From positions 1-41,735 of the forward strand of contig JADLBV010000042.1 of assembly GCA_020847545.1 (NCBI GenBank): a stretch of DNA of 41,735 bases, given 5' to 3'. The notes under the pieces were generated by a model. That model did not search any database. It saw nothing but the letters and a program-made list of their open reading frames with translations, and was not told the DNA's origin. Origin of the DNA: Phycisphaerales bacterium (GTDB lineage Bacteria; Planctomycetota; Phycisphaerae; Tepidisphaerales; Tepidisphaeraceae). Shown here in pieces: positions 6,947 to 12,305 of the stretch (the stretch's first letter is position 1; every line of letters begins with the position of its first letter). Both the position numbers and the translations under genes were made by a program.

Positions 6947-7000
6947 AAGTTTCAAGTATCGAGTTTCAGGTCTCTAGTTTCGAGTCTCTGGTATCCAGTA
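6947..7000. repeat. 14-bp tandem repeat across the oppC/binding-protein junction
   Basis: Units AAGTTTCAAGTATC (6947-6960), GAGTTTCAGGTCTC (6961-6974), TAGTTTCGAGTCTC (6975-6988) and a decayed fourth unit TGGTATCCAG (6989-6998) follow one another without gaps. On the coding strand it supplies the last codons of the upstream permease (LLDTRDSKLET then stop) and the leader of the binding-protein gene. Since 14 is not a multiple of 3, a gain or loss of one unit would shift the permease reading frame end. Confidence 0.8.
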
Positions 7001-7904
7001 AATCCCGCAACCCATCGCCCAGAAAATTCAGGCTCAGCAGCGTCAGCGCCAGCAGGGTACACGGAAAAACCAGCATCCACCAGCGCGAATGAATCGTGTT
7101 CAACGCCGGCATCAGCCCGTCGCTGGCCAGTGATCCCCAGGTCGGCATGGGGGCCTTGATGCCGACGCCCAGGAAGCTCAAAAAAGATTCCTGCAAAATC
7201 GCCGATGGGATCGTCAGCGTGGCATAGACGATGATCGGCCCGGCCAGATTGGGGAGCAGGTGGCGAATGAAAATCCGCGACTCCTTCGCGCCGCACGCGC
7301 GGGCGGCCTCGACGAACGGCTGTGTGCGCAGCGACATCACTTGGCCACGCACCACCCGCGCCATCGTCAGCCAACTGACCAACCCGATCGCCAGAAAAAG
7401 GACCACAAGGTTGGCCGCGTTTTCGCCCATGAAGCGTTGCAGCAGCGGTTCGAGTGCGATTTTGAAGAGGATCACCATCAGGATGTACGGCAGGCCGTAG
7501 AGGACATCCACCATCCGCATCAACAGCCCATCGACCCACCCGCCGCGATATCCGGCGATCAGACCCACGGAGACGCCCAGAACCACGGAAATCAGGGCGG
7601 CCGAGGCGCCGATGAGCAGGCTGATCGCCCCGCCAATCAGGCATCTCCCCAGCAAACTGCGGCCAAGGCCATCGGTCCCAAACCAGTATTTGGGTCCATT
7701 GTCAATCCGGGGCGGACGGCGTGCCTCGGTTGATTCCTGATTGTTGTAATAAAGTGTCCCGCCGGGAGCGTTGGTCCAGGGCAGTGAGACGATGCAGACC
7801 AGCAACATCAATGCCACAAAACCGCCTCCCAACGCGAGTCGGCCGTGGCCGGGGATTCGCCGAATAAACCCGATCGTGTTTGATTCCACAGCCGCGCTGG
7901 TCAT
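6966..7904 (-). CDS. OppC-like ABC permease (second permease pair)
   Basis: 312 residues, of normal OppC length. Features: a single N-terminal helix (about 24-42), the periplasmic block with FGTDGLGRSLLGRCLIGG, core helices, the EAA loop (VEAARACGAKESRIFIRHLLPN), then SFLSFLGVGIKAPMPTWGSL and a final helix ending FLGDGLRDLLD. It is the partner of the OppB-like gene just upstream. The last ~8 residues derive from a 14-bp tandem repeat, so the native C-terminus was probably a little different. It differs clearly from the long OppC at 2466-3854, so the two are not a recent duplication. Confidence 0.9.
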   Translation of the reverse strand: MTSAAVESNTIGFIRRIPGHGRLALGGGFVALMLLVCIVSLPWTNAPGGTLYYNNQESTEARRPPRIDNGPKYWFGTDGLGRSLLGRCLIGGAISLLIGASAALISVVLGVSVGLIAGYRGGWVDGLLMRMVDVLYGLPYILMVILFKIALEPLLQRFMGENAANLVVLFLAIGLVSWLTMARVVRGQVMSLRTQPFVEAARACGAKESRIFIRHLLPNLAGPIIVYATLTIPSAILQESFLSFLGVGIKAPMPTWGSLASDGLMPALNTIHSRWWMLVFPCTLLALTLLSLNFLGDGLRDLLDTRDSKLET

Positions 7905-7920: not shown

Positions 7921-8032
7921 AATGTGCCACTGAGACACAGAGAGCACAGAGAATAAAGTCATATTCCAAAAATATATTTTGGAATTTTGTATTTGTATTT
8001 CCTCTGTGTTCTCTGTGTCTCAGTGGCACATT
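7921..8032. repeat. CACAGAG inverted-repeat element, copy 2, with nested palindrome
   Basis: Two 31-bp arms (7921-7951 and 8002-8032) are inverted repeats with one mismatch; each contains CACTGAGA plus two CACAGAG units at 9-nt spacing. The 50-nt interior holds a second, perfect palindrome: ATTCCAAAA (7963-7971), 5-nt loop, TTTTGGAAT (7977-7985). The whole element can fold as one long hairpin or a branched one. It sits between two permease genes, with its right flank touching the stop codon of the upstream OppB-like gene. Confidence 0.88.
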
Positions 8033-8038
8033 CATCTT

Positions 8039-8962
8039 CTATTTCCCCAATTCAATGCGTGGATCGACGACGGCATAGCCGATGTCCACCAGCAGGTTAA
8101 AGGTCAGCAGAAAGACCGAATAGACCATGACCGTCCCCAGAATCAGCGTTTGGTCGCGGTTCAAAACCGAATTGACAAAATGTTGCCCCAGGCCGGGGAT
8201 ATTGAAGACCTTTTCGACGACGAAGGAGCCGGTCAATGTCATCGCGGCGGCCGGGCCGAGGTAGCTGAGGACCGGCAGAAATGCGTTGCGCAGGCAATGT
8301 TTCCAGATCACCACCGAATTGGAAAGTCCCTTGGCCCGCGCGGTGCGGACAAAATCACCGGCCAGCACATCGATCATCGCCACGCGCATCAGCCGGGCGA
8401 TGTAGGCCATCGGCATCAACGACAGGGCGACTGAAGGCAGGAGCAAGTCGCGCCAGTTTCCCCACTGGCCAAAGGGGAGCCAGCGCAGTTTGATGCAGAA
8501 AATCGCCGACAAGGCGGCCGCGATCACAAATGCCGGCACGCTGACGCCCAGCAGCGCCACCGTCAGGCTCACTCCATCCCACGTCCCGCCCCGCCGCACC
8601 GCCGCCAGAACACCCAACCCCACCCCCGCGAAGGTGGCGATCACCATCGCGCACATTCCCAACGTGACACTTACCGGCAGGGAAGTTCGCAGGATATCGT
8701 TGACGGTGAATTCCTCATAATTGAAACTGCGGCCAAAATCCCCGCTGAGCAGCACGTTTTTGGGGTAATAGGCCAGAAATCCGTACCAATGTTCGGCATG
8801 AAAGCTGCGTTTGAGCGATTGTTCCACCGCCGGCGGCAGTTTTCGTTCGGTCCGGTCAAACGGACTGCCCGGCGCCACCCACGCCAGCAGAAATGTAATC
8901 AGATAGATCGCCGCCAGAATCAGCGGAAACTGCGCCACCCGCCAGGCAATGAAACGCGCCAT
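8039..8962 (-). CDS. OppB-like ABC permease (second permease pair)
   Basis: 307 residues from the ATG at 8962, where the family-typical start MARFIAWRVAQFPL begins; an in-frame ATG at 9004 would add 14 residues unlike the family. Core features: a first helix, the WVAPGSPFD block, the periplasmic segment, the EAA loop (VRTARAKGLSNSVVIWKHCLRN), VVEKVFNIPGLGQHFV, and an end at VDPRIELGK. No good ribosome binding site precedes either start. A weak TTGGGA / TACACT promoter-like pair is placed so that transcripts could start within a few bases of 8962. It is the first gene of the transporter set proper. Confidence 0.88.
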   Translation of the reverse strand: MARFIAWRVAQFPLILAAIYLITFLLAWVAPGSPFDRTERKLPPAVEQSLKRSFHAEHWYGFLAYYPKNVLLSGDFGRSFNYEEFTVNDILRTSLPVSVTLGMCAMVIATFAGVGLGVLAAVRRGGTWDGVSLTVALLGVSVPAFVIAAALSAIFCIKLRWLPFGQWGNWRDLLLPSVALSLMPMAYIARLMRVAMIDVLAGDFVRTARAKGLSNSVVIWKHCLRNAFLPVLSYLGPAAAMTLTGSFVVEKVFNIPGLGQHFVNSVLNRDQTLILGTVMVYSVFLLTFNLLVDIGYAVVDPRIELGK

Positions 8963-9088
8963 CAGGATGGATAGTGTAGCCGACGACCGTTTTATCCCAA
9001 ACATACGACCATAATTTTTTATAGAAAATCAGCATGGCCACCATCTAGGTGATGGTACGTTGTTGGGAATCGATCAACCATCAAGTAT

Positions 9089-12085: not shown

Positions 12086-12102
12086 AGCGAAAGAAAAACA
12101 TA

Positions 12103-12221
12103 TACGCCACAGAGGCACAGAGAGCACAGAGAAGAAGATAATTGAGACAAGGAGGCTGGGAAACAAGGAGATTGGAATTCTCTGTGTATTTCCTCTGTGT
12201 TTTCAGTGGCTCTGTGGCGTA
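12103..12221. repeat. CACAGAG inverted-repeat element, copy 3
   Basis: The left arm (12103-12133) reads TACGCCACAGAGGCACAGAG and continues with one more CACAGAG unit; the right arm (12178-12221) is its imperfect complement, with 12 perfect outer pairs (TACGCCACAGAG). The interior includes GAGACAAGGAGGCTGGGAAA and ACAAGGAGATTGG, a second short-unit repeat (ACAAGGAG). It lies in the 282-nt gap between the TPR lipoprotein stop and the argB promoter. Confidence 0.8.
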
Positions 12222-12305
12222 CCTCTTTGGTACTTTCATTCCATACGATCGAACGGCGGAAAATGAAACTGCCTTGGAAAGGGCGCGAAATTTGATCCCC
12301 GGTTT

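Follow-up and report, generated by a model that had tools for sequence, protein, structure and literature searches.

A non-coding hairpin between two permease genes belongs to a family of palindromic elements associated with GxxExxY, a predicted nuclease

The 112 bp palindrome that separates two permease genes in this planctomycete is best read as a non-coding derivative of the GxxExxY palindromic element, and it has probably been moved or maintained in trans by the nuclease that the GxxExxY gene is predicted to encode; we put the probability of this reading at about 60%. Its membership in the family of GxxExxY-associated elements is well supported. The palindrome has inverted arms of the unit CRCNRAG, which recurs about every 9 nt, the same genome carries a GxxExxY gene inside like arms (locus L029), and the element is polymorphic for presence and absence at orthologous sites, two other sites being shared. 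The focal copy contains neither a gene nor the remnant of one, a feature that marks full-length members only.

Within the window (the whole stretch of 41,735 nucleotides that was analysed), the focal element occupies positions 7921–8032, as delimited by its sequence, its fold, and the empty site in G001, a genome of the same genus. The initial annotation described 31 bp arms matching at 30 positions and enclosing a second, perfect 9 bp palindrome, and we find both as described. The left arm (7921–7951, plus strand) consists of three units, CACTGAG, CACAGAG, and CACAGAG, and the right arm (8002–8032, minus strand) is its inverted copy, with 97% complementarity (30/31) across a spacing of 50 nt. 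The inner palindrome (7963–7985), ATTCCAAAA-ATATA-TTTTGGAAT, with its 5 nt loop, is peculiar to the focal copy, as judged by comparing its loop by eye with those of the other listed copies. No GxxExxY or other coding remnant was seen in the 50 nt between the arms. The window contains 14 occurrences of CACAGAG, compared with 2.6 expected, and none of 100 shuffles reached 14. The palindrome is far beyond chance: minus-strand RNA of the element folds at −66.4 kcal/mol, compared with −21.8 ± 3.5 kcal/mol for shuffled sequences (z = −12.9).

The element does lie between two permease genes, as was initially noted. Both neighbors encode binding-protein-dependent permeases (PF00528) in a minus-strand oligopeptide ABC-transporter operon: a dppB-like gene at 8039–9004 (93% amino acid identity to its G001 ortholog) and a dppC-like gene at 6966–7904 (86% identity), both on the minus strand. 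The stop codon at 8039 is separated from the element by 6 bp, and because the element ends 16 bp short of the start codon at 7904, a Shine-Dalgarno-like stretch next to it (CCGGAG on the minus strand) is, by eye, left intact.

This location, between a stop codon and the start of the next gene inside an operon, together with the very stable predicted RNA fold, could mean that the hairpin is selected by the host for its effect in RNA, being cut by RNase III or protecting transcript ends and so tuning the ratio of the permease subunits. The layout is that of the 23S rRNA intervening sequences, which are cut by RNase III (PMC4990558). By analogy with these, the hairpin in the transcript may be an RNase III substrate, which would make an insertion inside an operon tolerable and could even make it beneficial, and the effect on transcript processing foreseen in the initial annotation is plausible. 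As the reason why the hairpin is kept, however, a role in RNA seems improbable. The congener G001 has no element at this site, and among the other relatives only the more distant G013 showed a hairpin of such arm type in the same permease gap, built there from another unit, CACGGAG; the 25-mer of the arm recurs in unrelated contexts and phyla; and a search of Rfam with the element found no family at its gathering score. A known RNA family was rejected, the only matches being sub-threshold ones to plant miRNA precursors and one Wolbachia sRNA, which arise because of the long hairpin. An intrinsic terminator (a GC-rich stem followed by a T run) was also rejected: the search gave no match on the operon strand and one weak match, on the plus strand, inside the right arm.

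The arms are repeated throughout the genome, where the initial annotation had predicted many paired copies. A two-unit arm pattern has 28 matches in the 3.75 Mb genome (G000), compared with none for the reversed control pattern, and nearly all of the matches are paired arms around unrelated loops; reading them in context yielded at least 15 hairpin loci, the focal one included. Two further copies lie in the window, both intergenic and both paired, less perfectly than the focal copy: copy 1 (~2290–2450, with arms at 2290–2315 and 2423–2450), between a permease gene of the operon and an ATPase gene, and copy 3 (~12096–12228, with arms at 12096–12131 and 12193–12228). Selection for pairing, one of the explanations first offered for the near-perfect arms, does not follow from these data. 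Because all arms are near one consensus, arm similarity within elements does not significantly exceed that between elements (0.84 versus 0.82, p = 0.12), and we dropped within-genome arm covariation as evidence on that account.

Several of the copies in this genome have additional features. The sequence GCACATTCATCTTCT is common to copy 1 (2447–2461) and the focal element, copy 2 (8026–8040), and runs beyond the paired arm of the latter, so that, on one side, the boundary of the mobile unit may lie outside the arms. The loop of copy 1 contains (at 2325–2362) TTGATTTTTAATTTTTGATTTTCGATT, an A+T repeat also found elsewhere in intergenic DNA (e.g., at L033 and L035). A second repeat, GACTTCGGCGAGCTCAGTCGAGCCGTG, is embedded in CACAGAG arms at L009, L019, L021, and L024 (~position 1500).

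Comparison with G001 revealed turnover of the elements. The orthologous permease pair of G001 is separated by TGAAAGGAGTTGCCCATG, without the element; the region corresponding to copy 1 is free of arms; and copy 3 was not seen after the orthologous gene, at a point where synteny breaks near a contig end. As all three are absent from the corresponding G001 positions, the three window copies are insertions or losses since the split between G000 and G001. A recent origin of the focal element, which had been suggested from its arms, is compatible with its absence at the same site in G001, an absence that could in principle reflect loss instead of insertion. We found no target-site duplication or target motif at the empty G001 site. 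Elements were present in both genomes at two other sites, between rpsB and tsf (where the loops differ) and at L015, which indicates that turnover is real but slow. With these two sites shared, we do not conclude that G001 lacks an element at most of the G000 sites.

Further palindromes were seen in related genomes. In genome G020 (L048), the permease gap has other inverted repeats, CATCCTGAGCGAAGCGGAGGATC and GTGGCGAGGGCAT, and the gap may thus accept several kinds of palindrome. The loop of the rpsB-tsf element of G001 (L288, ~1500–1650) has a further hairpin of CACAGATT/GGGGCACAGATT units, so that one palindrome appears to be nested inside another. Three G001 elements (L279, L281, and L287) have loop sequence in common, and L279 and L287 are also alike over ~20 bp outside the arms, which suggests recent amplification of a larger composite.

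The only GxxExxY gene in the focal genome (TIGR04256) sits, at L029, exactly between the arm ATGTGCCACAGAGGCACGGAGAGCACAGAGAA and its inverted partner, and these arms end in ATGTGCCACAGAG, as they do in the short copies. We looked for such enclosure elsewhere by measuring inverted similarity in the 250 bp on each side of GxxExxY genes; windows shifted away from the gene served as controls. In a set comprising the locus of the focal genome and the 30 best GxxExxY loci from a search of the class (298 genomes), 22 of 31 loci reached the threshold, compared with 0 of 121 displaced controls. Enclosure was found for 19 of 29 loci in other phyla (0 of 106 controls), in an independent set of genomes found solely by the arm DNA pattern CTCTGTGYYCTCTGTGYCTCTGTGG. 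Overall, 41 of 60 GxxExxY loci from many phyla were enclosed, compared with 0 of 227 displaced controls, and about a third of the loci failed the arm test. In 39 of the 41 enclosed loci, CRCNRA[G/T] units occurred at least twice in each arm, and across genomes the two arms of one element were more similar than arms of different elements (50.8 versus 19.9, p < 5e-5).

The pattern CTCTGTGYYCTCTGTGYCTCTGTGG occurs in Planctomycetota, Verrucomicrobiota, Acidobacteriota, Chloroflexota, Cyanobacteria, Myxococcota, and Bacteroidota, and also in Chlamydiota, Gemmatimonadota, Cloacimonadota, Proteobacteria, archaeal bins, and others, among which single contigs may be errors of MAG binning. Near-identical 25-mer arms recur in many phyla and in unrelated contexts. 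The unit varies (CACAGAG, CGCAGAG, CGCAAAG, CACGAAG, CATGAAG, CGCGGATT), with a constant period of ~9 nt. An inverted partner was found on the expected side, less than 1.6 kb away, for 87 of 133 arms; on the opposite side, 7 of 127 arms had one. The loops between paired arms ranged from 0 to 738 nt.

Tandem units of low complexity might also originate without mobility, by local slippage and by template switching. Such events create quasi-palindromes in simple sequence and correct them, and template switching could in principle homogenise the two arms. We regard this origin as very improbable for the focal element, because the same degenerate 25-mer appears across phyla, the empty site shows the 112 bp unit to be wholly present or wholly absent, and the cargo is consistent.

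GxxExxY, a predicted nuclease, falls in PF13366 of the PD-(D/E)XK nuclease superfamily (E = 5e-44). Residues H17, E26, E36, D65, E75, K77, Q89, and Y93 are invariant in 30 aligned members, and we take the resulting motif, D..ExK..QxxxY, to resemble the RecB/Cas4 signature. An AlphaFold model built from three sequences was poor (pLDDT 47), and neither sequence nor profile searches found a relative of GxxExxY in the PDB. Comparison of the G000 and G001 genes gave a dN of ~0.145 and a dN/dS of ~0.12–0.15 (with a dS of ~1.0–1.2 that is near saturation), which indicates that GxxExxY is under purifying selection. Among 2.9 million viral contigs we found a single GxxExxY locus, and carriage by phages is therefore unlikely.

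Enclosed GxxExxY genes were found in several states of decay. The gene is intact in a 406 nt loop at L183 (Chloroflexi), frameshifted between arms at L186 (Cloacimonadota), and degenerate between arms at L182 (a Thermoplasmatales bin), and pieces of it with internal deletions lie between good arms at L112 (Prevotella) and L130 (a Diapherotrites bin). By this comparison of sequences, the short elements have the appearance of decayed long ones.

A second gene family has a parallel arrangement. Genes for S23/four-helix-bundle proteins (TIGR02436, PF05635, 23S_rRNA_IVP) were enclosed at 20 of 32 loci, at a looser threshold (32) that 2 displaced controls also reached, and the arms had a 7 nt period in 17 of the 20 enclosed loci of the class. 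The focal genome provides an example on contig C83 (L034:1420–1900), where an S23/four-helix-bundle gene lies within inverted arms of the unit GACAAGGA. The layout of these loci, with arms around a gene, is that of the 23S rRNA intervening sequences, for which mobility by their ORF has been proposed (PMC4990558). S23 genes are present in 230 of the 298 genomes of the class, and GxxExxY in 187. The genome-level correlation between arms and GxxExxY is real (odds ratio 4–12), but S23 counts correlate equally with arm counts, and we therefore did not use genome-level co-occurrence as specific evidence.

Could GxxExxY be a passenger of palindromes that another enzyme spreads, with the nuclease serving in addiction, defence, or repair? 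The activity of GxxExxY is a prediction from sequence, S23 genes, whose products have no nuclease fold, reside in palindromes of a comparable kind, and no GxxExxY was detected in 5 of 50 arm-bearing genomes, all of which would fit a passenger. We nevertheless consider this unlikely, although less so than a role in RNA, because the enclosure is tight and specific for arm type across phyla, because the catalytic motif is conserved, and because co-presence is 90% in the genomes picked by arm DNA alone (45 of 50); in 14 control genomes, nothing scored above the GxxExxY cut-off.

The most likely interpretation of these results is one in which the arms are recognised by the nuclease encoded between them, which promotes their spread or maintenance and takes gene-less copies along. 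An element of the family would consist of two inverted arms, each of about three 9 nt units (NNCRCNRAG, usually with ACC first), with a single gene, GxxExxY, enclosed in full-length members; short members would have lost this gene or never have had one. We infer that arms of the matching kind are recognised by the predicted nuclease in the form of a DNA hairpin, a cruciform, or a target, and that, by cutting there, the enzyme may drive the copying of arms into intergenic sites, or their upkeep. Gene-less copies, including the focal one, would then be moved or kept in trans.

The arrangement of many small intergenic palindromes, copies of which also flank a partner bearing a candidate enzyme, recalls the REP/REPIN elements and their RAYT partners (PMC2817692, PMC3116915), and the focal genome has four Y1_Tnp genes. 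That the focal element is itself a classical REP/REPIN moved by a RAYT (a Y1 tyrosine transposase) is nonetheless hardly credible. None of the four Y1_Tnp genes is flanked by CACAGAG-type arms; arms of tandem 9 nt units, distributed over many phyla, flank GxxExxY (PF13366) instead, which is not a Y1 HUH transposase. By eye, each of the four RAYT-like loci (L030, L031, L032, and L033) apparently has a palindrome of its own, e.g., GGACAGGTCC and GTGGGCACTGCCCAC.

The elements also share features with other known systems. The 23S rRNA intervening sequence with an S23/IVP gene in Coxiella burnetii likewise forms a long stem from inverted repeats (28 bp, interrupted by one mismatch and a bulge, compared with 31 bp in the focal element) and lies within a transcribed unit; full members have a small ORF in the loop, and the sequence has been proposed to be a selfish element (PMC4990558). 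The focal element, in contrast, lies in a protein-coding operon and not in a 23S rRNA gene, and GxxExxY elements have arms of 9 nt units and a PD-(D/E)XK family protein; it is the S23 loci with 7 nt-period arms that form the parallel family. MITEs (PMC10969869) are likewise short, non-coding, and bounded by inverted repeats, and the hairpins in which the cargo has decayed resemble derivatives formed by internal deletion, but no target-site duplication is evident at the empty G001 site, and we found no known transposase in the arm-flanked loci that we examined, their full-length partners encoding a predicted nuclease. The TAACTGA heptamer repeats of Beggiatoaceae (PMC4679880) are intergenic tandem short units common to distant phyla. 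They differ from the elements described here in having a 7 nt unit, in being direct repeats and not paired arms, and in having no reported protein partner, and their period resembles that of the S23-type arms.

In the open-access literature that was searched, the arm sequences appeared in no bacterial paper, the sole match being to fish eDNA. GxxExxY is named there in two papers only, and no link to repeats was found in them. Provisionally, we regard the pairing of palindromic arms with GxxExxY as unreported. The system resembles both REPIN-RAYT and the intervening sequences by function but lacks defining features of each, and our results suggest that it is an overlooked kind of mobile element across many bacterial phyla. 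We propose, tentatively and at somewhat less than even odds, that these elements represent an unrecognised class of minimal mobile element (a RecB/Cas4-like GxxExxY protein, arms of 9 nt units, hairpins moved in trans) in many bacterial and some archaeal phyla, and that there is a sister class with S23/Avd-like four-helix proteins and 7 nt arms, of which the 23S intervening sequences are one instance.

GxxExxY and the S23 four-helix-bundle proteins are very common uncharacterised proteins. With the rule of arm period, 9 nt for GxxExxY and 7 nt for S23, a testable role can be assigned to both, as proteins encoded by an element. The rule also accounts for a family of intergenic hairpins common to distant phyla and provides a wider frame for the old question of how the 23S intervening sequences spread. 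If the nuclease recognises its arms, then arm type and protein would constitute a small, separable DNA-recognition pair.
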